From: Cloeon dipterum
Lineage: Eukaryota > Arthropoda > Insecta > Ephemeroptera > Baetidae
NCBI RefSeq assembly: GCF_949628265.1
Contig: NC_088786.1
Span: 32,633,681-32,697,680 of the forward strand
Length of the DNA: 64,000 nt
Direction: 5' to 3'
The notes beneath the pieces were generated by a model. The model had not been told where the DNA came from, ran no database searches, and saw nothing but the letters and a program-made list of their open reading frames with translations. The translations under genes and the position numbers were made by a program. Shown here piece after piece: positions 22 to 37,532 of this stretch (its first letter is position 1; each line of letters opens with the position of its first letter).

Positions 22-1944
22 ATGACTATCCTGCTGGCGTGTCCGTGCAGCCAAACACCGGAAATTGATCTCAAGTATTTAGTGAAGAAGAAATTCGGCG
101 AAGATATTTTGATTTGCAATGGCAATGAACAGAAACTGGAGAATCAAGGCTACCTCGGAGTGGTTTTGCGAGTAACGTACCATGTTGTTGCGTCTCAGCA
201 TCCAGTCTCGTTCATCGTTAAAAAACCAATGGCTGGTGAACTAGAAGCAAATGCTGCAGAGCGAGAATGGTAAGTTTGTTTTGTTGTGATTATTTTAAGG
301 AGCATTGCTAATTTTACCGATTTTCGGCCCCCAATATACTTTTAACATGTTTATATTTCTTCAAAATTCTATGATTTTTCAAAATTCCACATCGTCGGGG
401 AAAATGGCCTGATTTTTAAAACCCAATCATTTTCGAAAAAATTAAGTTAAAAATCTTCCTATATCTGGGAAAATTGTGCTTAAAAACTTTTGGCTGAGAT
501 GCACTAGGAAAATAACGTGCAGTGTAAAGTGTAAAGCCACGACATGTGCGAAAGTTTACATTTTTTTCAGGAAAAATTATTAATAATGAAAATTTATAAA
601 GTACTGGAAATTTTTGAAACTTTTTCATTGATTTTTTCGGAAAAGATGGGGATGCTAGTAAATTTTTTAACGCATAAAAAACTATCAGCTTTTAGAATCT
701 GTGCTTTTTCTCTCTCCGGCCTATTCCTGCTAATCTACGAAATATATAACTAAAAATATCTTAATTCAAATTCAATTCTTTTTGACAGCATTTACTTCGA
801 GGAACTGAAGCCTGAACTTGAAAACGCCATACCAGATTTGCCAATCGTCCAAATGCATGATATTCACACAGAAAATCCGAGAACTAGAGCAATCATTTTA
901 GAGGACCTCTGTGCGGCTGGTTTTGAGACCTCGAGTTCACATGGCACCGTGATCAAGGAGAAGAAGCTGTCCATGCCCGTCGCTCTTTGCGTCGTCGAAA
1001 GCCTTGCCAAAATTCACGCAGCGTCCGTAGCTAGCAAAATGAATGCACGCACGGATTTGCCCAAAATCGATTGGAGGAAGACCAAAGAACATTTTAAGGA
1101 TCGAATTCACACGAGTGCGAAATATATAATTTCGCCCCTAATGGAAAACGTCCTGAGCGATAGAAATGAAATCGAAAAACTCTCCAGTTTCATCAATTCT
1201 GAACAATTTGTTGAGAAACTTGTACCGCTTATGGAGGGTGATGGTGATGAAAATGGACTAAAGGTGCTTCTCCATGCTGACTGTCACTTATTAAACATGT
1301 TTTTTAAGCATGGTAGCGAAAAAACTGAGATGCGCTTCATTGACTGTCAGGTAATCATAATCTATTTATTAATTATAGAGAGTAGAATCTTTGTCAAAGC
1401 CCGTGATTATTGCTGAAATATGAATTTTAAACTTGCTCAACTCAGTTAAGAGTAAGATTTTTAATGTGACATGTATTACAGATTTTATCATTTAACAAAA
1501 ATATTTCAGTAAAAATTAAAAAATCACTTATGTATGAACATTTTTATGTTCCAGACCTACTATGTCGGCCCAGCTTACATAGATTTAATGTATTTCATGT
1601 ACACAAGTGCGACCCAGGACTTCAGAGCCAAGAACGAAAAGGATCTCGTGCGGAAATACGTGGAAGCTTTTAATGTTTGCTGCGATGATCTCAAAATTGA
1701 TTTTGACGGTTTTTGGAATAGCTACAACAGAGCTCGCCACTATGGTGTGCTTGTCGCAATAGGCTTTCGCGCTTTCCAGCTATTGCCGGAATCCCAATGC
1801 AACGAAACTGATGTACAAAGAGCTAACGATGCATTTAGTTCTGACCCAATTTTCCAGAAAGAGTTTAAGGATCTCATCGAGCACATAAGGGAAGTTTTCA
1901 CAGACATAGTTGAATCATCTCAAAGGAAGGTCTTTTACGGTTAA
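22..1944 (+). CDS. Ecdysteroid-kinase-like protein (CHK/EcKinase family), gene 1
   Basis: Three exons, 22-269, 789-1350 and 1555-1944, join with matching phases into 399 residues, the usual length of the insect CHK kinase-like family. The family has a protein-kinase-like fold; known members phosphorylate ecdysteroids and others are linked to detoxification. Visible landmarks are a lysine in the FIVKKP stretch (about residue 70), an ILEDL hinge-like motif, a Brenner-type motif reading LLHADCHLLN in place of the usual HGDCH, the downstream FIDCQ that replaces the DFQ metal site, and the family's GPAYIDLMYF block in exon 3. The start at 22 lies almost at the window edge, so an upstream exon cannot be excluded. 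A paralogue lies at 20273-22808 on the other strand. The HGD to HAD and DFQ to DCQ changes raise doubt about catalytic activity. The substrate is unknown. Confidence 0.85.
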
Positions 1945-12330: not shown

Positions 12331-14306
12331 ATGACTAAGGTAACTATGCAAAGTTTCACTAACTTTCTTGTTAAATAATTTTTTTCTTAAAAATTAACAG
12401 AAAATGTTATTGCTCCTTTTCCTCGCGGTTCCCGCTTATGGGTTTATGGGAGGTTTCGCACATCCCAAACTTCCGACTACTTTGAAATCAACTGATGCAG
12501 TTGAAGATAGGATCAAGCAATTGATTGACCATGACCGGCCGCTGGACACAAGAACCTTCAGCCAAGTGAGCTTTCTTTAAAGTCCGTGCGTGTGAGTCGA
12601 GTTAAAATTTTTTAACAGAGATACTACAAGCGGATCGGAAGCATCAGATTAGGCGGGCCGATATTCCTGTTCCTCGGCGGAGAGGCCGAATCCTGGGGAG
12701 GCTACGTGTCTAATGAATCTTTCATCGGGCAAATGACTGATAGGATGAATGGCGCTGCTTTCGAGCTCGAGCATCGCTACTATGGAATCAGTCAGCCGTT
12801 TGAGTACGCTTCTTGAATTGTTTTTTTTTAAATCTCATTGAAACAAAATTCAGCACCCTGGAAACCCAAAATTTGCAATATTTGAGTATTGACCAAGCGC
12901 TGGCCGACGCTGCTTATTTTGCCCAGCAAATGGTTCAGATTTACGGTTTCTCGGGTCCGTGGATCGTATGCGGCTTCTCATACTCGGGGATGCTGGCTGG
13001 GTTCGCGAGGCAGAAATATCCGCACATTTTCCACGCCGCTTACTCTTCTAGCGGCCAGCAAGAGGCCAAAATTGATTTCTTTGGTAAATATATAAAATTA
13101 CAAAAACTGAAATCGGTTTTGAACATTTCCCTTCATTTTGAAAAATAAATAAATTGGTAGATTATTAAAAAATCAAACCTAAAAGGACAGTTTTAAACGT
13201 ATGTAGCTGTTAAATATATTTTTAAATTTCTCTTCAAATGTGTTATATAGAATATCATGAGATGACGGGTATCGGGTTAGGGAAGGTGAATCCACTGTGT
13301 CCAGGATATCTTTCGGCTGCAATGGACGAAATGGTTGCGCGAGTCACCAGTCAAAACCAGGCGGACGTGCAATTCGTTGCTCAAGCTTTCAAGTAAAAAT
13401 AATGATTTTTCCTACATACTTCGTCTAAAATAAATTTTTAGTTTGTGTCCCGAGTCAAATCTCAAGATTGCCAACGATGCGATGGGTTTGTACTCACTGG
13501 TGGCGAACGTTTACGGGTGGGTGGTGCAGTTCGCGCTCCCAGGAATGATTGCCACCGAGTGCGAGCTCCTGATCGACGGTCCCGGCACTCCGCTGCTCAA
13601 CCTGGCGGAGGTCGTCAACCAGGCATTCCCGTCAGGATGTCTCGACGTGCACTACGACGGAATTGTCGAATTCTATAAAAACAGCACGCAAATCGAGCCT
13701 GGAAATAACTGTGAGCAGGGAAAGAATTTATTGTGATTTTTTGGACTCATATTTATTTTTTAAAGACCGCCAGCACTTGTACCAAACGTGCCTTGAACTG
13801 GGGTGGTATTTCACCCTGTCGGGAAATACACCGTTTGGAAATGTAGTTCCTGTCGAGTATTACATCAACATGTGCGCCGACGTTTTCGGCGAGCTGTGCG
13901 TGAAATTATAACAATTATTCGCCATTCGCGAATATAATTTATTTCTGGTGTGTGAGACAGGTTTACTCAGGAGCTCCAGGAGACTGGAGTGGCCCGAACC
14001 AACCTGGAGTTTGGCGGCAAAACACCTGACGTGACCAGGACGATTTTCACTCACGGCACCTTTGACGGTTGGAGCAAAGTGGCAGCGGAGACGGATATAA
14101 ATCCGGACGCGCCTGTCATCGTGATTCAAGGTTAAGTTGGAAATTAATTTCGATGAAATTATCTAATATTTTGTGCCATTTTTGTAGATGTCGGCCATGC
14201 TGCCGACGTGTTTTTCTCTGCAAACGAGCCACCGCAACTGATTGAAGCTAGACAGCAAGTCGAGGCGCAGCTCTCGGAGTGGATTTTGCTGCATGACAAA
14301 AATTAA
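12331..14306 (+). CDS. Secreted serine carboxypeptidase, family S28 (PRCP / thymus-specific protease type)
   Basis: S28 enzymes cleave prolyl-bond or dipeptidyl substrates in lysosomes or outside the cell. Nine exons (12331-12339, 12401-12565, 12619-12803, 12854-13083, 13251-13392, 13442-13710, 13766-13895, 13961-14130, 14188-14306) join in phase into 472 residues, normal for the family. The first exon encodes only three residues; the next supplies a leucine-rich signal peptide ending near AYG. Family marks: GGPIFLFLGGEAE, FELEHRYYG, the nucleophile serine in CGFSYSG, the aspartate in THGTFDGW and the histidine in DVGHAAD, so the Ser-Asp-His triad is present. It differs from PRCP at the usual NGSLDPW (here HGTFDGW) and is closer to the thymus-specific protease branch. 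Expected to be an active digestive or extracellular enzyme; the substrate is unknown. Confidence 0.9.
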
Positions 14307-14708
14307 TTATTTTAATGTATGAGCATGAACTAGTCAATAAAAATAGTACACACTAATATTTAATTGTATTAAAACCTCTGAAGATCCTTTAAATATTATA
14401 TTGAACACGGGATTTCTCGAAATTGCGTGTAACTGGAATTCTTTACAATATGTTATCATTAAAAAGCCAAAGTAGGACATGTAAAAACGTACATGAAGAA
14501 ATCTGGACGTGAAATAATTACAGAGAACAGCATTATTTGCTCATGCATATTGATATCAATGTCTGCACTCCAAATTACATACCCGTTTGTTCTTTTTATC
14601 ACTTTCCTTTCATGGAAACCGCGGGGAGGCCATTAATTTTGGTCGGTATATATATACATCCACGAAGGGAAATAGAAAATGAAAAGGTGTCAATTCAGCT
14701 GACAAACG
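14307..14708. other. Intergenic, S28 peptidase to protease-OBP gene
   Basis: An AATAAA polyA signal at about 14336 fits the S28 transcript. The rest is AT-rich and ends in a TATA box for the next gene. Confidence 0.5.
14646..14656 (+). promoter_or_regulatory. TATA box of the protease-OBP fusion gene
   Basis: A TATATATATAC run lies about 55-60 bases before ATG 14709. This supports transcription starting just upstream of the signal-peptide exon. No comparable element or signal-peptide exon was seen before the OBP-like part. Confidence 0.55.
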
Positions 14709-17409
14709 ATGTACTTGTCCCGCTTGACAACTGCGATACTACTTCAAATCTTGGTAATGTGGTTTTATAATATATAAAATTTCTAACCTCTCGATCATTG
14801 ATTTTAAAAATATACCACCAAACGGTATAAATTTGCAGCTCTCAAATAAATTAAAATTTGCGTTTTTCATGGGTATACACATTAGTCAAACATAATTTTT
14901 TTTTTGCTATACGGGAATTCACAACACGTCATGAGAACACTATAAATTAAAAGTAAAACATAATTAAGAAATCAAACGATTTATACATATCTATACACGT
15001 TTGCTGATTGTGCTCGCTTCATTTAAGATTTGAAATTGATAATTTTGCAGCTAGCAGGTGCAACAAACGCGGTCAAATGGGATTCAGAAAAGGTTAAAGA
15101 GGCGTCGGTGACCTTTCCAAATGTCCAGGAAAACACTGAGACCACTGGAAACGAGGAGGACTTAGCCCCGGGCGCCGACGAACCGGGCGCCGAGCTAAAA
15201 CAGCGTACGTATTTTTGTCAATGGCCCCTCTCGATGGAAAATTAATCTAGAATTCGAGCAGCCAAGGAAGCAGGGAGGTGGTCCAGGAAATTGCTCAATG
15301 GAAAACTGAGCGGCGGGCCCGAGGTGATGCGCGGCCAGTTTCCGTGGCAAGCGTCTCTCGTCGTGGACCAAGTGCTCTTTTGCAGCGGCTCGCTCGTCCT
15401 GAAAAACTGGGTCCTCACCGCTGCTCACTGCGTCTCAAAGTAAATGTCTGTTTGACAATCCTGTAGGCTGTCCTATATATTATTCTCTAAGCATTGGATT
15501 TATCTTAATATAAGGCAACATTTCAAATCTTGACAAAATTAACCCATAGTTTTATAGACGAATCCATTGTTTTAAGTTAAATTTCTCTCAGTGCAAGTGC
15601 TGTTACGGTTAACTTGGGCTCCTTTACCAAGGACGATCTTCGTTCTGCCACAATACAAGCAGCAAGAATATTAGTTCACGAGAATTTCGGTCCTGAGAGT
15701 CTGCATAACAATTTGGCACTTCTGCAGATGTCGAGCGAAGCTAAACTGATGCCAGGTACGCTCTCAAGATATATCTATAGAGTGGTAGAATTAAAAAAAA
15801 AAATAATAATAAATGTCGCAGGTTTCATTGAGCTTGTGAAATTGCCGCTGGCGACAGAAGCAAACAAAACGTTGGAAGGGCTGATGGTTGTAAGTAGCGG
15901 TTTGACGAAAGCAGAAACAAGCGACAAAAGTAGGTACAATAATTACGAATTATGCAGTAATAAAAAATTGGCATGCGTCCAGAAAATAAAGCAGTCCTGA
16001 AGTTGGACTTCCCGGCTCAGAAAGTTATTTCGAACACCGCGTGTCAAAGCTTTTACGGCAGTGGAATTATTAGTGCAGGGATTTTATGCACGAATTTCAC
16101 AGACAGTGGAACAATAACCAAGAAATCCAACTGTCTAAAGGTATAATATTAATTGTGATAATTTTTTAAATAATCGAAAAAAATTGATGCGTGAATCAGG
16201 GATTATCTGGCGGATCGTTGGTATTTCAAGACAAGAGCAACACTTGGGTGCAAATCGGAATCGTTTCGTTCACCTCTTCTGAGGGTTGCTCGCAAGGTCC
16301 GACAGGACACGTCAGGGTTGCCTCGCATTTAGGGTGGATTTCATCCCGAATTGAAAATGGTTTATTTATATTTTATATTTTGGTTTATTTATTAATTACA
16401 ATTTATAAACTGCAGGAACTAGTGCCTTACTGTCCGCAGAAAATCCATCAAAAAAGCCGAATCGCATTGATAAAAACACCTGTCGATCTTCAAACTTCCA
16501 GGTTTTTAAAATATATTTATGATTATATAATCTCACCCGAAATATCACAGAAATTGCATGAATGCTGTGAAAATCCGCCTGCTGACTTGGTCCCGTTTAA
16601 TCCAAAGGAGAAAATTTGCTCGAACAACAAGCAGAAAATGTCGATATTTAATGAATACATTTTGAACAAAGGGCAGCATTCAAACGTTAACTTCACGGTG
16701 TTCTTCTATGACATTCAAACTCAGGACCTGTTGAGACATCAGGCGGTAATAAAATTGCACCAATAAAAACTTTTTTATAATTAAGAGTCTCATTTTATGC
16801 TGCAGTGTTTTGTGAACTGCATTTTTTCCGCGAGAGGAGCAGTACGTAACACTTAAAATAAAAAATATTGTTAATAAAATCTAAGCAGATTACAGATGAA
16901 GTACAAGGTGTCATCAATTCTGAAGCAGTTGTTCGTCTTTTGAAAGAAAACCAAAAGGATGAAGCGTGGGGCACGAAAGTAGAGACTTCCTTCCGTGCGT
17001 GCGAAAATTTGCTGCTTGGTATACAAAAAAACTGTATAAGAAAAGGCTTCAAGGAAAATAGTTGTTTCTCCAACGATGATAGACTATCAGTTTCAACTGC
17101 CCTTTGTCGAATCTTACGGAAAATGGTGCAACGTGACTGCAGCCGCCCTGGTCCAGTGCACTCAATTCCAACTCATTCAGGTTTGGCAGAGCAATGCGTG
17201 CATTACTTAATTTACTTAAAACTTTCCTTTTCATTTTGCAGCTGTGTGAAAAACAAAGTAAGCACGTATATAGATTGTATATTTGATCCTAAATTATTTT
17301 TTAAAATTCAGAATCTACCGGTTCCTGCAATAGTAAGCGGAATGCGTTCAATGCCTGCGCTGGGACAGCGTTCAGAGGTCAATTATTGACGGAGCAAACA
17401 ATGAAATAA
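14709..17409 (+). CDS. Secreted fusion: trypsin-like serine protease homologue plus Plus-C OBP-like domain
   Basis: Fourteen exons (14709-14753, 15051-15204, 15259-15439, 15592-15755, 15822-15929, 15983-16140, 16200-16359, 16416-16501, 16551-16745, 16806-16841, 16889-17018, 17083-17180, 17242-17257, 17312-17409) keep phase and give 542 residues. Residues 1-22 are a signal peptide (MYLSRLTTAILLQILLAG). An acidic linker follows to about 75, then an S1 domain to about 323 with GQFPWQASL and the histidine in TAAHC. The catalytic aspartate block reads NNLALL, and the serine block reads GLSGGSL (serine kept, preceding Asp lost), so it should be inactive. The last 200 residues carry 12 cysteines, including ECC, CFVNCIF and KWC, as in insect Plus-C odorant-binding proteins. 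No stop separates the halves: 16191-16766 is one open frame even unspliced. A GTAAGT at 15890 is a possible alternative donor. A ligand-binding role is inferred only. Confidence 0.75.
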
Positions 17410-17595
17410 CGCACAATCCCAAAAGCTTCAGAATTGTACATTGAAACCATTAAATAATCTTTGCAACAAAAAACACTCATGAAATTGGTTTTAATTTTTA
17501 CCGCAACCATGGCAATAAAATGTTATTACATATTTATGTTATTTAATATACAAGTGTATCGCATTATGCACGTAGTGTCAAGAACAGTTAATTAA

Positions 17596-18029
17596 AGAGG
17601 AATGATACTGGAAAAGCCTGGAAAACGCTTGTTGCCAATGCATAAACTCATCCCTTAGGATTCAGTTAAAGCCTAAATTGACCTATAAGGAGCGCTGTAT
17701 TTTTTTGAGAAAATTGACTGGAAAGTTACCGTGCTTTTCGAATGGTAATGGCTGTCTCCTTACTTGAAATCCGATTTAATTTCAAAACCAAGAGTTTCCC
17801 CAATAAGTGGCATACACCGTTGGACAGATCTAGACGAGAGGAATCGGAATATGCCAAGAAAATATGTTCGAGCAGTGTAAATTTTGGAGAAATTTGACAA
17901 AATTTGAATTCCCATTGTAGGAGTCTTTTTTTATTGTGGCAAATTGTTGAACAAATTGTTTATCGGTCAATTGTTTAAGGCATCCAACAATTAAAATAAT
18001 TTTCAATTGTTGCCCAGTATCATTCCACT
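17596..18029 (+). mobile_element. TTAA-flanked non-autonomous DNA transposon (MITE), copy A
   Basis: A 434 bp element lies between two TTAA tetranucleotides (17592-17595 and 18030-18033). Its ends are imperfect inverted repeats around GGAATGATACTGG and CCAGTATCATTCC. It has no coding capacity. Two more copies lie at 25885-26311 (opposite orientation) and 35149-35569 (same orientation). TTAA flanks are typical of piggyBac-type transposition; the terminal sequence is not one I recognise. Confidence 0.8.
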
Positions 18030-18822
18030 TTAAGCAAAACTGTATAAATTAAAAAAAAATATCAAATCAGAATTTAACTGCTATACGAAACTATCACGTA
18101 ACAAAATAGGTAGTGAACATTTATGCTATTAAACTTGTCCATGCAAAAAAAAATATTTTCTAAAACTAAATCTCAAGATGGAGAGCGATAAATGCTATTT
18201 TCTCAAGATTGTACGACCAGAAAATTGAAACACGATGTGAAAAATTCATTTGGAACGTACAACCTTGGGAAAATAAGCTTATAATTATTCTAAATTCCTT
18301 TCCTAAAAAATTGGAATTTGACCATAAATTCAACATGTAATAGTTGCTAAAAGTATGGGCCCATTTCGGCTTTAGTCTCCAATGAGTAACGTCTTAACAT
18401 GTTGTATGTCAGGAGTGGTGCCCTTTCTCACTTTTCTACTATTCATTGATATTCATTTTATTTTTATAAGTGAGAATAAACATCAAATAATAACACAAAA
18501 ATATTTAAAGGGCAATTTGTATAAATTTAACTTGTAATGTTTAACAATTTTAGAGGTGCGTTAATAGTAAAATTTTCTAATCAGTAAAAATAGCCTATTT
18601 GATGCAGTTTTTTTCTATTTATTTTTCATTCCAAACATTGAATATCCACAGTGGAAAATAATACAGTTCTTCATTTAATTAAAAGTAAAATGGTTTCCAC
18701 CGCTTCACATTTTCTGTGCAATTTCCCTCTCTTTACAACATTATTCAATGTCAGAAATTCCCTTATTCTGATAAAGAGGTTCACCATTCATCATCCTTAT
18801 ATTTTAATTGCAGTGGGGGCAA

Positions 18823-18833: not shown

Positions 18834-18893
18834 AGTTCGCCACGCTTATTTTACTTTATTCCATTCCAATCCCACTCTCGAGCGACAAGCACA

Positions 18894-20097
18894 ATGAAAA
18901 GCCTCAGCGGAGCATTTTTCCTTTTCGTCGGGGCAACTTTCCTGTTTGCCCCTTTTTGCGATGCCGGCCACGCTATCTTGCACGAACTGGAGCGGCAGCA
19001 GAGAAGCACCATTGAATACAGCTGCGATGTACTGTACACTACTTAAATTAAATTCCTAATTTTTCTAACAATTCTTTTAATTTAGGACCAAGCCTACTAC
19101 GACCAGTGAGGCCTCAATTCGTTCCAGTCTAAACGAGCTTAACATTTATTATTTTGTCACGTTCGTTAAATAGGTTTGCAAGCAGTAAGCAGGCGTTGTG
19201 CGACGAATCCTTGGAAAACGCGATCACCGAGCTTCGGGCATCAAAGAGTCAATGCCTGGAGAAATTGCAAAAATTAGTGGAGCAACAGCAGGAGAAACTG
19301 GCGATCTGCTCTCAGGCTCGCAGCACTAACGCAGCTAGTTGCAGTGCAAAGTATAACGTAATTTGTTATTTCAACTCTTCTTCCAATTTTCTGGTAATTT
19401 TAGATTAGCAGCCCTTTCTTCGCAGATCGGTCAATGTGTAAGTGTTTGTATTTTTTTAACTGCACATTTATGTATTTAAATGAACTTTTGTTTTAGCAAG
19501 CTAAATGCTCAGCCGCAACTGGTTTGTAGTTAAATTGTCACTTTTAACACTTCATAATTGCATCATTCAATTTTCAGTAGCTTTGAAATTGGTAAAATTA
19601 TCAACTGGCTCGTACTACATCAGCCCTTCAAGTGAACAGGTGCGCTCTGCTTACTATAAATTAAATTAGAAGACAATTTATTAAACCTCTTCTAGAAAAA
19701 TTGGCACATGGCCGACAAATTCTGCAAGTCTAACGGCTTGGAGCTGGCCAGTGTCGAGACCATCAAGGAAAACGACGCCCTGGTTGCGGCGTTTGGTAAA
19801 ATATTAAAGTATTTTAAACAGACACATTGTTCTAATTCAAAAAATTCAGGGCCAAGCACCGACCGATTTTGGATTTCAGGCACCGACCTCGGCAGCGAGA
19901 AAAAATTCTACTGGAGCGGCGTAGGAAAGACGATGGAAACGTTTTGGTATTTTGAGGATGGCCAGCCGGACAACGCTAATAACAATGAAAACTGTGTTCA
20001 ATACGTTAAGGAAACGAACAAACCTACCTACAAGTGGAACGACGAAAACTGTAACACGCCATTCCGATTTGTTTGCGAGCTAGAAGCTACAAAATGA
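18894..20097 (+). CDS. Secreted C-type lectin, gene 1
   Basis: Eight exons (18894-19028, 19086-19105, 19174-19350, 19404-19437, 19497-19521, 19578-19639, 19696-19795, 19850-20097) join in phase into 266 residues. A signal peptide (FFLFVGATFLFAPFCDAG) is followed by a roughly 110-residue Cys-containing, Lys/Glu/Gln-rich, probably helical or coiled-coil stalk. The C-terminal C-type lectin domain has the GSYYIS start, NWHMADKFCKSNGLELASVET, a FWISGTDLGSE block, the sugar-binding QPD and the calcium-binding WND motif. QPD rather than EPN predicts galactose-type specificity. Likely a secreted pattern-recognition or tissue lectin. It is closest to gene 3 (nearly identical signal peptide and stalk start), and genes 2 and 4 share the plan. 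Confidence 0.9.
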
Positions 20098-20272
20098 GAA
20101 AATAATTAGCAGAGAGTTAATCCTTTTATCGACCAGATAAATATATGATTCTGCATTAATAAATGATTGGAAACAATTAATGTTTTTTTATTTTTTGTGG
20201 CATAATACATGGACTAAAAAGTTAACTTCCCATCTTAAGTTAAATACCAAAAGCATATTTGCATATTTTTAT

Positions 20273-22808
20273 TCATTTCTGGAATACAAAATCACGCAGC
20301 ACGTCCATGGCATGCGCAATCAAGGTTCGAAACTCCTCCCTGAATTCTGGATCATTTTCAAGAGCAAGCATTGCCGGCTGTACCATTGCACCATCGAATT
20401 GATTCATGGCGGCAAATGCCTCTTCAGTGAGTTCTCCCTTATCGGTGGCCGGTTGGAACTCAGTTATAAACTGAAGAGGACGTATGCCCATGGCCATGAC
20501 CACGCCAAAGTAACGAGTCCTCTCGTAAATGCGCCAAAATTGGTCAAAGTCGAGCAAATCTGGCGTGATGCACGCTGCAGCATTGAAAGCTTCAACGTAC
20601 GCTCGGACGACGTCTTTTTCGTGTTTGTCTCTGAAGGCCTGGTTGGCGCTGGTGTACATCAAGTAGATTAGATCGTTGCAAGCCGGGCCATAACGAAAGA
20701 TCTGAAATTCCCATAAAGAGTATTTTGTTAGGAAAATGTAGGAATATATGTGTTTACTCTCGCTATCGACTCGAAGAAAAGAAATACAATTCAGATATAT
20801 CAATATAAGTTTGAATGTTCTAAGCATAAAAAATACTTAATATCATCTAATTTAAAGAATTAAATTAATTAAAAAATTAAATTGCAACCCTGCAGCTTAG
20901 TGGTGTTTATGTTTTGAAGCAAAATGAAAATCATAAATAAATTGATTTGATTACGAATTTTATCTATTTTAATTTTTTTATCAGTAAGAGTTTTGTTCTA
21001 ATTAATTAAATGAACAATATTGATACAAGATTATTTTGTGAAGAGACACAGCTTTTCAAGCAGATTTGAAAGCTGCTGGTGAGCTATACAATATTCAGTT
21101 TTTAGAATTACATAAAGCTAGTAAAAAAGACGTTGAAATAATTAGTCTCCCCAGCAGTTTGAATTTTTGTATACGACTGTCGAATTTGTTGAATATGATT
21201 TAAACCCTATTTTTCAAAAACATAAGTGAATCCTGAAAATTCAACTGAATTTATAAGAAAAGCGCTCGAAAAAAATAGAAAAGAAGGAACCATTTAAATA
21301 AGCCTCAACCTCGTCATTACACTGGAAAAAATATTTTAAAATTTCCAACCCTTCTTCTGCTCTTTTGATTTATACCTGAAAATCGATGAAACACATATCG
21401 ACTGCATTTCCCTTTTTGTCCAGCTTGAACATCATATTGTTAATGTGACAATCGCCATGAAGAAGAACATTCGGCGGGCGAGACTCGTCGTACGCCATGT
21501 ACTCGATGAAATCATCAAGAAGCTTTGGTTTGGCCATGAACTCGGCGTATTTTTCCAGCGAGCGATGTTCGGGAAAGAGCTTCTTCATCATGGGAATGAT
21601 CGTCTGGATGCCGCGGCCAATTAGCATTTTGAAAATCTCGGAGCTGGCCATGTCGAGCGGAGGGATGACCTCATCCCAGTTGACCCCGAGCGAGGCGGCG
21701 TGGATTTTGGCCAGCTTCCGCACGCACATCCTCGCGATCGGGAAGGTGAGTTTGTTGCCTCTGCCCATGTCCTGCATCGTCTTGCACAGCGTCTGGAAGC
21801 CCCGCTCGCACAGGTCCTCCATGATGATTGCATTTTCGTGCGCCACCAGCGTGCGTACGATCGGCAGCTGAGGACATTTTTCCTGCAGTTTCGGCACTGC
21901 AATGTTGAAATAAGCTCTGTTGGGGTGAGAGGAATAGGTCAAATTACGTATTTCGAACCTTTTTAATGAATGGGCGGAAATAGAGACGAGCAAAAAGCAA
22001 AAATATTTTTTTTATCTGAAATGACAAAAATTTGTTATTAAAATGATTGAAATTTATTAATTATTAAAACAAGGTCTAGTTAAAGGACTCACAACTGAGA
22101 AGAGCCGAGGTAAAATATATAAAAACCTTTAAAATATCTCGGTCCAACCCAATTAAATTAAATAAAAAATACTTTGCAAAAGAATTTTGTCATATTATGA
22201 ACTATACCAAAAATTGCAGGAAAATTGAGGCGTTGAATAATTAATTTATTTTTAATTGCTTTAGTTCTAACATGGTAATAATGGAGAAATTTGAAGTAAA
22301 ACGTTTGGTTCATTGGAAATAATTATGTAATCATTGTAAACTTCACATAGATGCGTATTTAATCCAAGAGTTGAACCCTAGGGTGTTTATCTTTATTACT
22401 TTGTTAAAATCACTTTCACCACCCAAAATAAAGAGGGTTAAAAAAACAGCCATCTTTACTTAGTGAAATATGACCTTTCAAACCACTGATGAAAACAATT
22501 AAAATATATTTTTTTGCCTAATTTCAACACACTCACCCCTCTCGCTGAATGATGTTTCCCATGCTGTTGATCATGGCAGCGTGCACTTCGAGGGCAGGAG
22601 GGCGCTTCACCATTAGGTTGACCTCGGTGACCTCGCCAAGAGCGGTTTTTACCTTGATCTTGGCCCTGAGCATCAGTGAGGCGAAGCCCTGCACCGTCTC
22701 GGTGCCGAGGTTGATGCTCCAGTCCAGAATTGAGCAACCACTGCCGTGCGACGCGATGACCGCTGCCAAAAGATCCCCATAATGCACCAGGCTCTTGTCC
22801 TTAGACAT
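20273..22808 (-). CDS. Ecdysteroid-kinase-like protein (CHK/EcKinase family), gene 2
   Basis: Three exons on the minus strand, 22808-22537, 21916-21376 and 20701-20273, join in phase into 413 residues. The intron positions match those of gene 1 (after the first ~90 residues and right after the FIDFQ motif), so the two are paralogues. Unlike gene 1 it keeps the canonical LLHGDCHINN catalytic-loop motif and FIDFQ, so it is likely an active small-molecule kinase. The VNLMVKRP lysine and the GPACNDLIYLMYTSA block of exon 3 are also present. It sits inside the lectin cluster and runs against it. The substrate is not predictable; known relatives act on ecdysteroids. Confidence 0.9.
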
Positions 22809-22963: not shown

Positions 22964-25130
22964 AATTCGTTACGCGTCCGGAAAAAAAGTAAATATGCAT
23001 TGTGCGTCAGCGAACAAATGGTACATATGCATTCTGCGTCAGCGAACAAAAGGTAAACCTGCACCTTTCACGATTTTACAGGAGGAGGTTTTATTTGTTT
23101 GCTGACATTACCTAAAACTAACCGGTTTAACGACTCCAGACATTAAATTTGAGACTGAATGCCGCTCATTTCAAAAAATGATTCGACTTGATACATGCAA
23201 CAGAAACGGAGAAATGGCACATTTCTCTGCCAGCATGCACGAGAGCCAGCAAATCAATCGATCAAATTTCAAAATTAAAATAGAAAGCGAAGCTGATAAA
23301 CCGATTTCCACGACACAGAACTAATGCCAACCGATTTAACTACATAATACGACCGGTATTTAATGAATTAAAAAACCAATATAAGAAAGAAATCTGTCGA
23401 TTTTTGACTTGAGCAAAAAATACGAGACTCTGGAACGCGTCTTTTTTCGTCTCTTAAATTAAAATAGCGATTGCAATTTGAGGTTGCGGCATCTGTTGAC
23501 AATAAATTATCAAAAATAAATTGCAAAGTTTTCGTGCATTATCCATGAAGCACTCTGATAAATTGTGTCGCAACTAACCTCTTTTATCAAATAAAACGCA
23601 TCACCAAATCTCGGGTTTGAGCCATCAGAATTGCAAAAATTGAACACCGTTTGGCTCGTCTCAACCTCCCCTAGACAGCCAACGGGTTTTGGGGGTGGTC
23701 ACCTACCCCACCAACCCCAATTTCTGCTTTTTTTCTACCTCTGGAACTTTGTGCCACCCGAATCTCGGGTTTTAGTGGTCCTATTTACAAAAAATACGTA
23801 CTGTTTGACTAGTCTTTGAATGAACTAAGTAACTGAATTGGTTTGAAGAGGGCAATTACTCGTCAACGTCGTTCCAAGGTGTTGAAACGGACAAAAAATG
23901 CTAAATTTCCCGTTATTGAGGGGGTTAAAAGGGGGTTGGGGGTTGGTTGGTCCCATACCCCTTTATTGCACTTGGGTACGTCAAGACGAGTCTAACGGTA
24001 TGCGGTTTTTCAAAATCAGATGATTAGAAGTCGAGATTTGGGCGATCATCGAGCATATTATTGCATCGCGTCTTGATAAAAAAAAGCTTTGTGCACCCGA
24101 ATCTCGGGTTGTGGTGGTCCTATTTACGAAAAATATGTACCGTTTGACTAGTTTTTAAGTGAACTAAGTAACTGAATGGGTTTAAAGAGGGCAATTACTC
24201 GTCAACGTCGTGCCAATGTGTTGAAACAGACGAAAAAATGCTAAATTTCCCGTTATTGAGGGGGTTAAATGGGGGTTGGGGGTTAGTGGGTCTCGTACCC
24301 CTTTAGTGCACTTTGGGACGTCGAGACGAGTCTAACGGTATGCGGTTTTTCAAAATCAGATGATTAGAAGTCGAGATTTAGTCGATCATCGTTTTTTAAC
24401 AACCTCGAAAAACAAGGTTTTTCAAAATTTCCATTTTTTTTAATAAAACGAAGAAAAACTCCAATCCAAATTTTAATGTTTTTAACTAAACTTTCTGTAC
24501 TCTACAAAATGGCTATGGAAAAAATAAAAAATTTCAGTATATTCAATTTCAAATTCGAGTTTTAAATAAAAAATCAATTTTATGACCTTGACCTTTGACC
24601 TACCACTTTGAGGTCAATATAAAAGTTGTTTGCCATGTTGAGACGAGTTAAACGGTTTTTTAATTTTTGTTCTAGAACCATCCTGAGCAAAGTTACAAAG
24701 TACTCAAAATTCCCAGATTTTGACTTTCGAACGCCCGCAAAACCCGCAAAAATTAGAAATTCGGAGTTTTTTCAACTATTTTCTCGGTCAATTAAGGCAA
24801 AGTTTGCGCAAAAAAATTTTCTTCAAAGTCCATTGATCCCTGGACAAAAATTTGTTGATTTTCACCTTTTTCACAGATTTTTGCAAATGACATCTTTTGT
24901 CAGGCTATAAGCTAAATTTAAATTTTCCTTTATTTGCATATAGATGTCACTAGTGATGAAAAAATGAGTCACCCCATGTATTTTGACCCGAATTTTTCAT
25001 TGGTGGAATAAAATCGTTTTGCGTCAAAAGTGCATATTTACCATTTTCACGATTTACCTTTTGACAGATGTACCATTTGTCCGCTGACGCACAATGCATA
25101 TTTACTTTTTTTCCGGACGCGTAACGAATT
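22964..25130. mobile_element. 2.17 kb non-autonomous DNA transposon with long terminal inverted repeats
   Basis: The left end (from 22964) and the reverse complement of the right end (to 25130) match for about 63 bases with one or two differences, beginning AATTCGTTACGCGTCCGG. AATT is either the end of the repeat or a 4 bp target duplication; it is palindromic, so the two cannot be told apart. No transposase frame is visible. The interior holds a block repeated in tandem (about 23755 and again from 24094, offset 339 bp), and a relative of the interior lies at 41293-42080. Confidence 0.8.
23755..24390. repeat. Two tandem copies of a ~300 bp unit inside the transposon
   Basis: Both copies start CACCCGAATCTCGGGTT, run through the same GAGGGGGTTAAA and GATGATTAGAAGTCGAG blocks, and lie 339 bp apart. 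A third copy starts near 41326. Confidence 0.85.
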
Positions 25131-25807: not shown

Positions 25808-26423
25808 TGGAGGTCTCAGCCAGTAAGCGCCGCGCCAGTAAGAAAATTTTGCAGAATCAAAAAATGTCTTTCAGCCCTTTTTAAAAAGTGGAATGATACT
25901 GGGCAACAATTGAAAATTATGGATGCCTTAAACAATTGACCGATAAACAATTTGTTCAACAATTGGCAATAATAAAAAATGACCTTCCTACAATAAAAAT
26001 TCCAATTTTTCCAATTTTCTCCAAAATTTACACTGCTCGAACATATTTTCTTGGCATATTCCGATTCCTCTCGACGAGATCTGTCCAACGGTGTATGCCA
26101 CTTATTGGGGAAACTCTTGGTTTTGAAATTAAATCGGATTTCAAGTAAGGAGACAGCCATTGCCATTTCAAAAGCACGCTAACTTTCCAGCCAATTTTCT
26201 CAAAAAATTACAGCGCTCCTTAGGTCAATTTAGGCATTAACTGAATCCTAAGGGATGAGTTTATGCATTGGCAACAAGCATTTTCCAGGCTTTTCCAGTA
26301 TCATTCCTCTTTTAAGCACTATTAAACTTCACGTTTAAAATATTGTCAACCGCGCCAGCCGCCAGTCGCCGCGGCTAAGCCGGTTCGCCAGCCGCCGATT
26401 TAAATCTTCGCAGCTGAGACCTC
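25808..26423. mobile_element. DNA transposon with GAGGTCTCAGC ends, copy 1 (host of a nested MITE)
   Basis: Ends are GGAGGTCTCAGC and GCTGAGACCTC. The 9-base string TAATAACAA sits immediately on both sides (25799-25807 and 26424-26432), a target duplication that would fit a hAT-like 8-9 bp footprint. Non-coding apart from a chance frame. Copy 2, without the insert, is at 49391-49695; internal stretches such as GACAATATTTTAAAC match it in reverse orientation. Confidence 0.8.
25885..26311 (-). mobile_element. TTAA-flanked MITE, copy B (nested)
   Basis: A 427 bp copy of the 17596-18029 family in opposite orientation, bounded by TTAA at 25881-25884 and 26312-26315. It lies wholly inside the 25808-26423 element, so it arrived later. 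Confidence 0.85.
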
Positions 26424-27316: not shown

Positions 27317-28526
27317 ATGTTGCACCTGAGCAAAAGTGTTTTCATAGTCGCTCTAGCGTGCGTCTTGCCCGTCAGAAGTTGGGAACCAAGGAGACACGTC
27401 GCCAAAGCCGGCGGGGTAAAGCCAAACATTTTATTGTGTTAATAAAAAAATTCAATTTGATATTTCATATGTAGTTCTGTCCATCTGCTGTCTCGTTCAG
27501 GGCGTCAGTATTTTATTTAATTTTAATTAAATTCTGCGACTGCTATATTTGAACAGGTACGCCAAGCAGGACCTCGAGTACTGCTACGAAAAGTTGAATT
27601 TCCAAAAGGAACTGGCGCAAGGACAATCGACAGCATGCGAAGAAACCATTGCTAATCTCACACAAGCTTTGACCGATCAGGCGCAGAACTGCAGAATTAT
27701 GGTTTTAAATGCAGTTGAAAGTGGCAATCTCTTGTAAGCATTATAAAAGCATATATATGCAAATAATAAAATGGCTAAACGATTTACCGTGCAGAACATC
27801 CAAGTTGACCGAGGAGCTGGGGAAATGCGTAAGCTGATGATGTTTCTTTCAGTTTTTTTGGTTCAAACTAGTCATATTTCTTTCATGCTCGAAGATAGAT
27901 GCAAACTATCCAGGTAAAGTGAAAACTATAAAATTAAACGACTCATATTTTTTACAAATATTGCGTACATGGAAGAACTTGTTAGCATCGAAAAGAGTGA
28001 TCTAATACAATATTCAACCGGCACTTACTACATAAGCAAATCATTCGAGAAGGTCTTATCTTTAAATAGTTCAAAACGATTTCTAACAAAATAAAATGCA
28101 GACAAATTGGTACATGGCAAACCTGTTCTGCAAAAACAACGGCATGGAGCTGGCGAGCGTTGAAACCAAGGAGGAAAGCGATTTTCTAATATCGGCGTTT
28201 GGTGGGTTTTGCACGTTTTTTGTATGTCAGAAATAAATAATATGTATAAAAAAGGTTCGACCTCGGACAAATTTTGGCTTTCGGGCAACGACTTGGGCAG
28301 CGAGAATTATTTCTACTGGATCGGCGTCGGGAAATTGATAGACCCCTTCTGGTATTTTGAGCAGGGCCAACCGGACAACGGTAATAACAATGAAAACTGC
28401 GTCCAATACTTTGTCCATCCGAATATTAATGGCGCAACTTACAAGTGGAACGACGCAAACTGCGGTGAAGATGAGAGATTCGTGTGTGAGCTTGAGTCTA
28501 CTAAGAGATATGTTGGTGTTTTCTAA
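27317..28526 (+). CDS. Secreted C-type lectin, gene 2
   Basis: Starts with a signal peptide (MLHLSKSVFIVALACVLP, exon 27317-27415). Later exons are about 27557-27733, 27795-27828, 27895-27913, 27976-28052, 28102-28201 and 28255-28526; the small exon between the first two (around 27475-27530) was not resolved. The same stalk-plus-lectin plan as gene 1: a Cys-containing helical stalk, then GTYYIS, NWYMANLFCKNNGMELASVET, FWLSGNDLGSE, QPD and WND. QPD predicts galactose-type binding. Its signal peptide differs from those of genes 1 and 3, so it is an older member of the cluster. The product is expected outside the cell. Confidence 0.85.
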
Positions 28527-29358
28527 TAAAAATGGCTGCATAATTTCTGATGTTCTATCAAATGAGGTTTATTATTTCTGCATTTGGAAAGATGTATTCC
28601 TAAAAACACACACACAATTGACAATTTTATTGGTCGATTTACCCAATGGAACAACACAGGTTAGGTACAAAACACAACATTATTGAAAAAGAATCACATT
28701 TTTGTAAAATCGCGATTATCTAATAAATTTTTTTCAGATCATTTTTTAGAGTATTCAATTGGAAAACTGCAAAAAAGCGTAGTTTTCGTGTCGAAAAAGT
28801 CTGCGGTTGCTGTTAGTCACGTAAAACAAAAACTTTTGCGCGTCCAAAATATGTATTTCACTAAAAGACTTGAAGAATAAGTTCCAAATTTTGTTTTTCC
28901 ATAGTTTAAATTTCTGCTTCGAGTTTGCTTAAGATAGTCTTTTCCTTCTACAATAAAAATATACATATTTTATTTCTCTGAATATCACGCTCTCTGGGCA
29001 CAAAACAAAACATTGTTGAGACAGCAAATAAGAATCACGAATCAAAGTTATGGTTCCTCCAAACCAAGTAAGGACGAAAATGGGATGAAAATCATGTTAG
29101 CCTTCAAAAAGGATAATAATTACAGTATCCGAGGGTAATCATGCATACAACTGAAAGAAAATGATTCAGGAAATGGAAAACAGAGCCAGCAAAATTTTTG
29201 ATGAGGAAAAAAATCCAACCTGAAGCAAAGAAATTGTTTCTAGAAAGCCCCGAGACAGGAAAGTGTTTTAGACCAGAGTGGGGACGATTTTTACACCAGT
29301 TTCGAGCAGTCGGTCTTCTTGTTTCCATTCCAATCACGGTCGCGAGTGGAAAAGCACG
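28527..29358. other. Intergenic, lectin 2 to lectin 3
   Basis: AT-rich. The part from 28980 on belongs to the segmental duplication (second copy from 35083). No gene seen. Confidence 0.5.
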
Positions 29359-32199
29359 ATGAAAAGCCTGTGCGGAGCCTTTTTCCTTTTCGTCGGGGCA
29401 AGCTTCGCGTTTGCTCCTTTTTGCGAGGCCAGCAGCCACGTTATTTTGCACGGACTGGAGCGGCAGCAGAGAAGCAGCATTACCTACAGTTGTGATGTAT
29501 TTAACACGGCTTTAAATGAAAATCTTTACCAAACAATTTTTTTCTTTTAATTCAGGACCAAGCCTATTACGATGAGTAAGATATCGAATTTTTGGGAAAG
29601 ATAAATTTATTTGAATAGCTTTTGGTAAGCAGACTTGCCAGATCGAGACAAGCGGCATGCAACGCAACCTTGGCGAACGAAACGGCCCTGCCCCTGCAGA
29701 CGAAGAATGAATGTTTGCAGAACAAGCAGGAATTATCGGAATTACAAAGGGCGAACCTAGAAACGTGCTCGCTGGCCCGCAGCGAGCAAGCTATCAACTG
29801 CAGCAGAGAGTAAAATTACCAATCGATCAATACGCCACCCTTCTCTATACATTTTGTGTATTGCAAATTTTTAGTCTGGGGGCTTTATCTTTGCAGATCA
29901 GTGAATGCGTACGTTTGTGTACCTGTAAATTATTCGTTAATTGAACTATTTGTTTGCAGAAAGCTTATTGCCCAGTTGCACCCAGTTAGTATGAAAAATT
30001 TCGCTTGAATCGCTTCTTTTGAAACGGTAAAAATATATCTTTTAAGCTGCTTTGAGCTTGACTGTTTTGTCAACGGGCTCATACTATATCAGCTCTGCTA
30101 GTGAACTGGTACGTTGCACACTCAGAACGACACAAAGCCAGTTAAAATATGAATTTTGTTTGAATATTTAGAAGAGCTGGTTCATGGCCGACAAGTTCTG
30201 CAAGTCCAACGGTCTGGAGCTGGCCAGCGTCGAGACCATTGAGGAAAGCGATGCCCTGATTGCGGCGTTCGGTTTGCTATCGCGATAAATATTTCGTTTA
30301 AATTCCCAGAACTCGTTCTGCAGGGTCAAGCTCGGACAGATTTTGGCTCTCGGGCACCGACTTAGGCAGCGAGGGTGTTTTCTACTGGAGCGGCGTCGGG
30401 CAATTCATAGACGCTTTCTGGTATTTCGAGGACGGCCAACCGGACAACGCTAATGGCAATGAAAACTGCGTCCAATACTTTGTCCATCCGGATTTTAGTG
30501 ACGCAACTTACAAGTGGAACGACCACGAATGCAATGCGCCATTTAGATTTGTTTGCGAGCTAGAATCTACAAAATTATAAAAAAATAAAACGCATTATCC
30601 GACTCCTGGATAGGTTTGAAACTTATTAAGTTTGTTCTTTCACTTTGTAGGTTATGAAACACTAAACTTAAAAATATAAAAAAACTGAGACTTTTGAAAA
30701 AGGCTGAAAAAATTTAACATTTTGCCTCTTCCATATCGTTTGATGATCTTAATTCACCAACCGTAGAGCGTATTTAAAAAATAAAATTGATCCCGTGGCA
30801 TCACTTAAAAACGATGAATTGATGTAAATAAATCAAAGGCAATGAGAACATAGTTTTATTTTATTATATAGATGTCCGCATCCTTTTTACTGTGGATTTT
30901 GATTCCTTCACTGAGTGAGGCCCATGTTTTTTGTTTGCTATATGTTATTGGGACACGAGTTTCGCTCGCTATATCAAGGGGCACCCATCTGAAAGAGGTG
31001 AACCGATAAAAAACCTCGTTCGGAAAAACTTTCAAATAACAATGTTATGACGCAGTTGTTTCCCAGAAACTATAAAAATTAACTACACATTTCAGTTGTG
31101 CATAAAAATGTGTTTGTGTGTGCGTGATTCGAAAAATTGAAAAGTTCATGTGCATTGATAGCACAAATTTAATAGCGTTCCCTGGCTTCTTTTTTCTCTT
31201 GTTCTTAATAATACCATTTTTTCTCGGCGCGACAAACTGAAGGGAAAAATAACAAGAACAGAATTATGTGCCGGGTTTGGCAAAACCAATCAATTGTTTG
31301 TGCGGAATGCAAATGCAGAGATTGCAAAACAGCGCAGTATGTTGGAATTGCCGTACAACCAGGCATGGAACCATTGAAAATTTAGGTACGGGGGAGGGTA
31401 CACCGTTGTGTTGGTAAATTAAAAATTAGTTAATTGGCTAGAGAAATGCATGAAACCATATATCATATTGACTACAGTTATTTTTCTGGAATATATTAAG
31501 GGTATTTTAATGTTGAGCACGTACTGAATCCGTAGTGTGAAACAGTACGAGTTTAACTTATTCCTCCATGTGCGGCCACTCCAGAGTTTTTCTTCGACGA
31601 TAACAGATATTTAAAATTGAAAAAAGCTTTACTTTTGGACCAATTAATTTTTTATTCGATACCTCGCCTTGTTGTTAGAGACCGAATTCCCTTTAAAATT
31701 GACGTATTTTCAAATATTTGCGCGGCCGTATACAATTTTATTGCATTGCGTAGAAATGGGCACGTGTAAGTGTGAAACCAATTTCTTATATTTGCGATAA
31801 TTTTTAAGGAAATACGTTAAAAAACTTTATCTTCCTGTCTCTTTATCAATTATACTCCCCCACACAATGCATATTGACGTGGTTTTTCTTTCCAGGAAGT
31901 AAACATTTTAGTAAACTTAACATGCGTCAGTCGCAGACATGCGTGAATATTTATGAGTGAAAGGGAAAAAATGTGAAAAACTTCATGTCTATATCGCAGC
32001 AGAGAAGATAGATAGTTTCCAAGCGTTGTTAACATGACACAAATATGTATTAATTGAGCATTGCAATAAGTTTCAAGAGACTTCACTTTACGTTATTAAC
32101 TAAAATTTAAAGGAAAATTGTAGAAAATATAATTTATGTGTGAAGATTTAAATCTGAAATAAAACGAAATAAGCACCTATTTTTCTTGTTCAAGATTTC
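28980..32199 (+). repeat. Segmental duplication, copy 1 (carries lectin gene 3)
   Basis: Starts at GAATATCACGCTCTCTGGGC and ends at TTCTTGTTCAAGATTTCA. The same order of sequence blocks recurs at 35083-39360: the shared left flank, the lectin promoter and first exon, the last lectin exon, and the 3' flank with GCATTATCCGACTCCTGGATAG. Copy 1 has an intact lectin; copy 2 does not. Confidence 0.85.
29359..30580 (+). CDS. Secreted C-type lectin, gene 3
   Basis: Opens with MKSLCGAFFLFVGASFAF, nearly the same signal peptide as gene 1, followed by the shared HGLERQQRSS segment. Exon 1 is 29359-29496, a very short exon encodes the same DQAYYDE heptad as gene 1, the stalk exon spans about 29632-29811, and the last exons are about 30174-30271 and 30325-30580. 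The lectin domain has GSYYIS, SWFMADKFCKSNGLELASVET, FWLSGTDLGSE, QPD and WND. The middle small exons (29870-30110) align with gene 1 but their limits are approximate. Predicted galactose-type secreted lectin. It lies within a duplicated block whose second copy has lost most of this gene. Confidence 0.85.
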
Positions 32200-35148: not shown

Positions 35149-35569
35149 CAGGAATGATACTGCAAAAGACTGGAAAATGCTTGTTGCTAATGCATACACT
35201 CGTCCCTTAGGATTCAGTTAAAGCCTAAATTGACCTAAGGAGTGCTGTAATTTTTTGAGAAAATTGGCTGGAAAGTTAGCGTGCTTTTCAAATGGTAATG
35301 GCTGTCTCCTTACTTGAAATCCGATTTAATTTCAAAACCAAGAGTTTCCCCAATAAGTGGCATACACCGTTGGACAGGTCTCTACGAGAAGAATCGAAAT
35401 CCTGCCAAGAAAATATGTTCAAGCACTGTAAATTTTGAAGAAAATTGGCAAAACTTCAATTTTTATTGTAGGAAGGTCCGTTTTTTATTATTGCAAATTG
35501 TTAATCGATCAATTGTTTATGGCATCCAACAGTTTTAATAATTTTCAATTGTTGCCCAGTATCATTCCA
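35149..35569 (+). mobile_element. TTAA-type MITE, copy C
   Basis: About 420 bp, same orientation as copy A, with GGAATGATACTG and CCCAGTATCATTCC ends. Unlike A and B it has no TTAA at its edges; the right edge abuts a SINE-like element, so the site has been rearranged. Confidence 0.75.
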
Positions 35570-35766: not shown

Positions 35767-36100
35767 AAGGACGACAATGGGATGAAAATCATGTCGCCCA
35801 TCTAAAAGAATAGTATAATTAAAGTATCCTTGGAGGGTAATGTGCATGCATGAAACTGAAGAGAAAATATCGCAATAAATAATCGAAATAAAGAGGTAGA
35901 CAAATTTTTGATGAGGGAAAAATCAAACTGATCGTAAAGTGCCGAAGCAAACAATAATCTTAAAATGTAATACAGGAAAAGATGCCTAAAACAAGGAAAT
36001 TGTTTCTAGAAAGCCGAGAGTTGGGACGATTTTTACCAGTTTCGTGCAGTCGCGGTCTTCTTGTTTCCATTCCAATCACGCTCGCGAGTGAAAAAGCACG

Positions 36101-36501
36101 ATGAAAAGCCTGTTCCTTTTCGTCGGGGCAAATTTCGAGTTTGCTCCTTTTGCGAGGCCAGCCACGTTATTTTGCACGGACTGGAGCGGCAGCGGAGAAG
36201 CAGCACTGCCTACAGTTGTGATGTATTGAACACAGCTTTAAATGAAAAACACTTAACAAAATAATAATTTATATTTTAATATAGGACCAAGCCTTAGCGA
36301 GCGAATTGGCGCTGCTCCTGCAGAGACGAAGAATCAATGTTTGCAGAACAAGCAGGAACAATCGGAAATACAAAAGGGGAACTTAGCAGGTTCCAATACT
36401 TTGTCCATCCGACTATTACTGCCGCAACTTACAAATGGAACGACTTCGACTGCAATTCAGAATCTAGATTTGTTTGCGAGCTAGAATCTACAAAATTATA
36501 A
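36101..36501 (+). pseudogene. C-type lectin pseudogene (copy of gene 3)
   Basis: Starts with the shared MKSL signal peptide, but the GAFF codons are deleted and a one-base loss in the CTCCTTTTGCGAGGCC stretch shifts the frame against gene 3. After a partial stalk the sequence jumps at about 36390 from stalk code straight to the last ~35 codons of the lectin domain (TYKWNDFDCN, RFVCELESTKL, stop at 36499-36501). The QPD region and most of the lectin domain are gone, a deletion of roughly 700 bp relative to gene 3. The 3' flank is still close to that of gene 3. Confidence 0.85.
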
Positions 36502-37532
36502 GAAATAAAACGCATTATCCGACTCCTGGATAGTTTTGTAACTTATTAAGTTTGTTATTTAACTTTGCAGGTTATGAAACACTAAACAGTTGACTTAAAA
36601 ATTAAATAAAATAATTCATACTTTAGAAAAAGGCTATCAGAACTTTAACTTTAGCCTCTTCCATATCGGTTTATGATCTCAACTCACCAACCGCTGAGTG
36701 TTTTTAAAACAAAATTGATCACGTCGTGGCGTCACTTTGAAAATAGAAATAAATCAAAGGCAATGATTACAAAGTTAGTTCTATTTTATAGAGGTCCGTG
36801 TTCTATGGATTTTGATTCCTCCACTGAGGCCAATGTTTTTAGTTCGCTTTTTGTTATTGGGAACGCGAGTTTCACTCGCTATCAAGGGGCGAAAAGAGGT
36901 GAACCTATCTGAGAAAAGGAAGTGTCCGTCAGGAAAAATGTTGAAATAAAACAATTTTCTGACTCAGTTGTTTCCCTTATACTATAAGTGAATTACACAT
37001 TTCAGTTGTTCATTAAAATGTGTGTGATAAAGGAAAATGGTAAAAGTTAATGCACATTGTTATTAACATAAATAGCGCTCCCTGGCTTTGATTTTTCTCT
37101 GGTTCTTATAACAGTTTGAAAAATCACCTTTTCTCTTATAACGTTGTATTTGTTGGCTAAAGACTGGATTTGAACCGTATAAATTACTGAAAGAAAAGGG
37201 ATCATTTTTATTTTTTTGTAATATATAGAGCGAGGCGCGCGGCAAACCGAAGTTTGTGCGTAATGCAAATGCAGAGATAGTAAACAGAGGTATGTTGGAA
37301 TTGCCGTAAAAACAGGCAAAGAACCATTGAAAATTTAGGTACGGGGAAGGTACACCGTTGTTTTAGTTCGTAAATTGAAAAATTAGTTAATTGGCTAGTG
37401 ACTGGATTTGACACGAAAATTATTCAAAGATTTATTTAAATTTTTTTAATACTATGAAATAGTAACAATCAATAAGACACAAGACCCTGAAATTCATCAT
37501 GCTATATAAATGAGATGCATAAACCATATTTT
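36502..37532. other. Duplicated lectin 3' flank, left of the LINE
   Basis: Matches 30581-31440 in order. About 115 bp near 37400-37515 has no counterpart in copy 1. No gene. Confidence 0.6.

Follow-up and report, generated by a model that had tools for sequence, protein, structure and literature searches.

A single gene of the mayfly Cloeon dipterum, lying on the + strand at 14709-17409 of the window (the whole 64,000-nucleotide stretch of DNA that was analysed), encodes one polypeptide in which a trypsin-like serine protease (S1) domain is followed by a domain resembling the Plus-C odorant-binding proteins (OBPs). Both families are known but their combination is new, and by its gene models and conservation the fusion looks real. 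Two mayfly genera have it, one with a dead S1 half and one with an S1 half that is apparently intact, and comparing them is a natural way to ask how an OBP affects a protease and why the protease was given up.

Gene structure

Rebuilding the exon chain from the sequence gave 14 exons (Table 1), GT-AG borders at 13/13 introns and no internal stops, with a product of 541 aa. The public NCBI protein "polyserase-2-like [Cloeon dipterum]" (P0001), also of 541 aa, is a 100% match to the rebuilt translation, so that an independent annotation agrees on the exon chain, down to the 16 nt of exon 13. The first-pass annotation of this DNA had described fourteen exons kept in phase and encoding a single polypeptide with an S1 and a Plus-C-type domain. 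The exon chain is borne out by the rebuilt model and by P0001, and the single polypeptide is backed by P0001 and by a protein of Neocloeon triangulifer with this architecture. The length then given, 542 residues, becomes 541, a difference that counting the stop would account for. The signal peptide of the fusion protein was called by eye rather than by a program.

Table 1. Features of the fusion gene and of its neighbourhood (positions in the window)
Feature	Position	Strand	Content
Exon 1	14709-14753	+	Start codon and signal-peptide core, residues 1-15 (MYLSRLTTAILLQIL); same in P0001
Exon 2	15051-15204	+	Signal peptide end and pro-region, residues 16-66; phase 1 at end
Exon 3	15262-15439	+	S1 start; LSGG at IVGG site; His57 in TAAHC, residue 122; phase 1 entry
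Exon 4	15592-15755	+	S1; HNNLALL, Asn166 in place of catalytic Asp102
Exon 5	15822-15929	+	S1
Exon 6	15983-16140	+	S1; cysteines 237, 252, 267
Exon 7	16200-16359	+	S1; GLSGGS, Ser195 (S272) retained, Asp194 (L271) lost; phase 1 end
Intron 7, 56 bp	16360-16415	+	TATAAA at 16404; exon 7 frame stop-free through the intron
Exon 8	16416-16501	+	Linker and C1a (C345) of the Plus-C-like domain
Intron 8, 49 bp	16502-16550	+	GT-AG
Exon 9	16551-16745	+	CC doublet (C356, C357), C1 (C374)
Exon 10	16806-16841	+	CFVNC; C2, C3 (C417, C421)
Exon 11	16889-17018	+	C4 (C466)
Exon 12	17083-17180	+	C487, C497
Exon 13, 16 nt	17242-17257	+	C506; sequence same in P0001
Exon 14	17312-17409	+	C515, C525, stop codon
EcKL open frame	754-1941	+	Ecdysteroid kinase-like
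Peptidase S28 gene	12804-14306	+	Serine carboxypeptidase S28; Pfam S28 in 12804-13145, remaining extent by eye
~430-bp repeat	17594-18031		Copy immediately 3' of the fusion gene
Related copy	18859-20106		Pfam C-type lectin match in 19696-20094
EcKL open frame	20276-22011	-	Ecdysteroid kinase-like
340-bp unit	23747-24391		Two tandem copies, ~91% alike
~430-bp repeat	25885-26312
Related copy	28100-28523		Pfam C-type lectin match in 28164-28523
Related copy	29323-30586
~430-bp repeat	35150-35569
Related copy	36065-36294
RVT_1 match	37491-38564	+	Reverse transcriptase; 358-aa open frame
Relative of 340-bp unit	41294-42068		~80% alike

It had also been pointed out that the two short introns flanking the linker leave the frame intact whether spliced or not. 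This is true, the unspliced frame running open from 16188 to a stop at 16764-16766, but the point carries little weight since, near the first cysteine, the Neocloeon protein agrees with the spliced reading. AATAAA occurs in intron 9 at 16748 and 16762, beside that stop. A retained-intron transcript ending near 16748-16767 could encode the S1 domain plus a tail.

Genomic neighbourhood

The locus is flanked by two ecdysteroid kinase-like (EcKL) open frames, and a peptidase S28 gene lies directly upstream. Four copies related at the DNA level (~67-77% alike), two of them with Pfam C-type lectin matches, probably form a lectin gene cluster. Three copies of a ~430-bp repeat, 88-92% alike and found in both orientations, look like a non-autonomous transposon, and the RVT_1 match is likely a retroelement remnant.

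The S1 half

The Pfam Trypsin model matches residues 84-316 with an E-value of 1.3e-32 and 113.9 bits (cut-off 20.6), which places the first half in the S1 (trypsin) family; the Neocloeon protein reaches 148.3 bits. Among solved structures, the best match of the Neocloeon S1 half is Hypoderma lineatum collagenase (1hyl, 5.8e-39), followed by a second collagenase (1azz, 1.1e-34). The corresponding half of the Cloeon protein is of the brachyurin/collagenase-like S1 type.

Residues are named here in chymotrypsin numbering. The two C. dipterum proteins, P0001 and P0002 (see below), both carry H122 (His57), N166 in place of Asp102, and GLSGGS with S272 (Ser195), and in both one residue is inserted between Cys267 and Ser272, and Leu stands in place of Ile16. 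Asp102, Asp194 and Ile16 are therefore replaced in Cloeon, and His57, Ser195 and 6/6 S1 cysteines are kept, the latter fitting the three usual S1 disulfides. The loss of the catalytic Asp and of the Asp before the nucleophile Ser, noticed earlier, is confirmed (Asp102 to Asn, Asp194 to Leu). The signature of an active S1 protease (His57, Asp102, and Ser195 with GDSGG) is missing from Cloeon, which shows H, N, S and GLSGG, whereas the Neocloeon sequence has it, with His57, Asp102, GDSGGP and Ile16 all present.

The Neocloeon protease is apparently intact. Its triad alone does not prove activity, since the activation site before residue 16 reads Q-IIGG (K-LSGG in Cloeon), with Gln, which is neither Arg nor Lys, and since the Neocloeon model (isoform X2) is without ~16 residues found in Hypoderma collagenase. 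The initial view of the S1 half as an inactive binding or scaffold domain is accordingly supported for Cloeon, given its Asp losses, but not for the family, given the residues that Neocloeon retains.

The Plus-C-like half

The second half is very likely an OBP domain. All of the 12 cysteines for which it had been called OBP-like were counted in the rebuilt protein (345, 356, 357, 374, 417, 421, 466, 487, 497, 506, 515 and 525), with gaps of 10, 0, 16, 42, 3, 44, 20, 9, 8, 8 and 9. A dipteran Plus-C pattern printed in the available part of PMC5054612 reads C1a-X11-13-C1b-C1c-C1-X21-48-C2-X3-C3-X43-C4-X20-33-C5-X9-C6-X8-C6a-X10-C6b-X9-C6c. The Cloeon cysteines pair with it in order, 12/12, and deviate by at most 2 from the printed ranges, the exact spacing being missed at X10 (X11-13 in the pattern), X44 (X43) and X8 (X10). 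No shuffle of the second half among 300,000 matched the 12-Cys pattern at a tolerance of 2, a value chosen post hoc with the spacings already known; the published inner core, fixed beforehand, was matched by 25/200,000 shuffles. The Plus-C core motif given in the accessible text of PMC2808328 (C2-X3-C3-X39-47-C4-X17-29-C4a-X9-C5-X8-C6) is matched by Cloeon 417/421/466/487/497/506, and the Neocloeon gaps of 3, 44, 18, 9 and 8 likewise fit this core.

With regard to other marks of the group, the strict older Plus-C motif is absent, the intervals C1-X8-41-C2 (42 here) and C6-X9-11-C6a (8 here) each being one off, and the Plus-C proline right after the C6/C6a cysteine is missing (C506 is followed by Glu in Cloeon, and the Neocloeon residue is Asp). 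The Pfam PBP_GOBP model (PF01395) gives a sub-threshold match at residues 415-466, the C2-C4 stretch, with an E-value of 0.02 and 15.4 bits for the whole protein; the second half alone gives 0.0064 and 17 bits and P0002 gives 16.9 bits, both under the cut-off of 22, and the Neocloeon protein gives no match to this model. Compared as a profile with four classic OBPs, the half aligned at C2-X3-C3 in a stretch of 30 columns, but weakly (hhalign probability 1.4%, P 0.038), and 2/150 fully shuffled and 3/150 Cys-fixed profiles scored at least as high as the real one. Solved structures matched the OBP half at chance level only, two by sequence and one by profile. The name Plus-C-like was chosen because the cysteine pattern fits, but the proline, the strict motif and the Pfam cut-off are missed.

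Relatives and extent of the fusion

The same domain order was found in a further C. dipterum protein (P0002), encoded on a different contig, and in Neocloeon triangulifer LOC132195166 isoform X2 (P0003); both genera belong to the Baetidae. The contig of P0002 is 240 kb long, so that this protein probably represents another assembly or lineage; it could possibly be a paralog. In the OBP half, P0002 is 92% and P0003 62-63% identical. Between the genera, conservation is higher in the OBP half than in the S1 half (124/196 versus 103/211 identical, Fisher p 0.004), and the linker is conserved at 3/20 positions. P0001 and P0002 are equally conserved in the two halves (S1 186/200, OBP residues 341-504 150/164, p 0.69); residues 505-541 were left out of this OBP count (152/177 with them) because the P0002 model departs there. 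The dead S1 half, being as conserved as the OBP half between these two proteins, shows no visible decay.

Searches of the kind that the first-pass annotation had proposed, for proteins with both S1 and Plus-C-type domains, found no fusion other than P0001, P0002 and P0003. These three were the only proteins of 298-947 aa recovered with the OBP half (450 candidates), and single-domain relatives of that half were absent at E <= 1 among 94 candidates. A full-length profile search, which scored the 7999 candidates sharing most words, yielded at least 38 proteins at E <= 1e-10; query coverage is 92-100% for P0001-P0003 and 10-51% for the other 35. The OBP cysteine core occurs in 0/35 of these partial matches and GDSGG in 34/35; P0002 is itself without the core because its model stops before C506. 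No fused relative beyond the Baetidae appears among the at least 38 matches at E <= 1e-10, in a search that relies on shared five-residue words and annotated proteins and may miss older relatives. Within the 64-kb window, tblastn with each half as query (E <= 10) revealed no paralogs; apart from the gene itself, all matches had E 0.51 or worse. The fusion looks old as well as real, since Neocloeon shares it with the protease apparently intact.

Origin and function

The account that we prefer, to which we give about even chances as a whole, is that one gene gives one secreted protein, which would consist of a signal peptide, a ~60-residue pro-region, a brachyurin-type S1 domain, a short linker and a Plus-C-like OBP domain. 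The fusion would have arisen before the split of Cloeon and Neocloeon, with phase-1 introns as the points of joining. Exons 3-7, which make up the S1 block, are bounded on both sides by phase-1 introns and so form a symmetric 1-1 module; this arrangement is typical of shuffled extracellular modules, and the block looks like one of these. As Neocloeon retains His, Asp and GDSGGP, the ancestor was probably a competent protease, able to cut and tethered to a Plus-C-like domain, and the Cloeon version would have become a pseudoenzyme, with its triad broken and the S1 fold retained as a non-catalytic module. Loss in Cloeon is the simpler direction of change. The most likely role would then be that of a ligand carrier with an S1 docking module, in which the Plus-C-like half may bind a small ligand of hydrophobic character, while the S1 half may position the carrier via a protein or matrix partner.

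One gene might also give two products, the full fusion and an S1-skipping transcript that secretes the OBP alone, to which we assign a low but appreciable probability. A junction of exons 2 and 8 (each phase 1) keeps the frame without an internal stop and yields 285 aa, one of exons 1 and 9 does the same and yields 205 aa without C1a, and the donors of exons 1 and 2 are ordinary (GTAATG and GTACGT); phase matching by itself, however, is common.

About equally improbable is a secreted immune or haemolymph serine protease homolog, whose OBP domain would capture a ligand of lipid or microbial nature, with the dead S1 domain serving as a cofactor of a protease cascade. Insect serine protease homologs with broken triads are an established class, one of which is reportedly the subject of a published study, and C-type lectin domains are encoded downstream. 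Neighbouring genes are, however, weak evidence, the Pfam scan reported no clip domain, and the S1 half is brachyurin-like, a class that is largely digestive.

Less likely again, the ancestor may have been a ligand-regulated protease, in which the Plus-C-like domain gated or delivered the tethered S1 domain. This arrangement would have been kept in Neocloeon and converted in Cloeon to a non-catalytic sensor or carrier, and S1 skipping could yield both forms. If true, two genera of one family would represent the before and after of a transition from protease to carrier.

It is very unlikely that prediction has merged two neighbouring genes, of which one, an S1 homolog, would end at ~16360 and the other would be an independent Plus-C OBP gene. 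In favour of this reading, prediction programs can string adjacent genes together, conservation of the linker between the genera is poor, and intron 7 contains TATAAA. The claim that no start, TATA box or signal peptide precedes the OBP part therefore fails for the TATA box and stands for a start and signal peptide nearby, where no candidate was convincing by eye. The first in-frame Met after this TATAAA is residue 381, downstream of 4/12 cysteines. Further upstream, at 14300-16000, ATG-to-GT stretches with a mean hydropathy of at least 2.0 number 4/22 in the phase of exon 8 and 13/37 in that of exon 9 (the real exon 1 included), so that the sequence leaves room for a remote alternative first exon. 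Closer by, this level is reached by 2/4 candidates in exon 8 phase (16000-16400), which share the ATG at 16187 and begin MRESG, and by 2/3 in exon 9 phase (16000-16510), one beginning MHEFH; with their charged or polar starts, these are by eye unlike signal peptides. Moreover, two C. dipterum proteins and Neocloeon share the join, and the exon 7 frame is stop-free until 16764.

The least probable reading is that triad loss in Cloeon was a first step of pseudogenisation, for which the three replacements and the residue inserted before Ser195 could speak, but the retained cysteines, His57 and Ser195, the 14 intact exons and an S1 half as conserved as the OBP half between P0001 and P0002 argue against it.

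Comparison with known systems

Hypoderma lineatum collagenase 1hyl, a brachyurin/collagenase-type S1 protease, has in common with the fusion protein the S1 domain and its six cysteines. Compared with such proteases, the Cloeon protein is without Asp102 and Asp194 and has an extra C-terminal Plus-C-like domain. With insect serine protease homologs it shares a broken-triad S1 domain, but it has no clip domain, and it has an OBP-like partner and an ortholog with an intact triad.

The available parts of PMC13205551 and PMC3428353 usually present OBPs as small proteins, either with a single domain or of OBP-OBP form. Almudi et al. described 191 OBP genes in C. dipterum, then the largest set (PMC7250882); the words "protease" and "peptidase" are absent from the main text of that source as available. 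A mayfly chemosensory paper of 2026 assigns its ten OBPs to the Classic or Atypical type, and "trypsin", "serine protease" and "fusion" do not occur in its accessible text (PMC13205551). Among the open-licence literature matches listed, titles and abstract openings mention no S1-OBP fusion. With an OBP half under the Pfam cut-off and a public name that refers to the protease only, the fusion is of a kind that may escape scans for short OBPs.

Double-domain, dimer and atypical OBPs of Nasonia, Drosophila and mosquitoes, as presented in the available text of PMC3428353, resemble the Cloeon protein in placing an OBP within a longer fused protein; their partner is a second OBP domain, whereas here it is a protease-like domain. 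The closest correspondence in cysteines is with the 12-Cys Plus-C OBPs (e.g., Anastrepha Plus-C and AgamOBP48), which, in the published excerpts consulted, show the same cysteine order, the CC doublet before C1, C2-X3-C3 and the X9 and X8 spacings. Unlike these, the Cloeon domain sits behind an S1 domain with no signal peptide of its own found, has no proline after C506, departs by 1-2 in some of its spacings and scores below the Pfam cut-off. The N-terminal region of AgamOBP48, with its CC doublet, contributes to a homodimer according to the available part of PMC5054612; by analogy, a Plus-C-like dimer in the mayfly protein would display two S1 domains.
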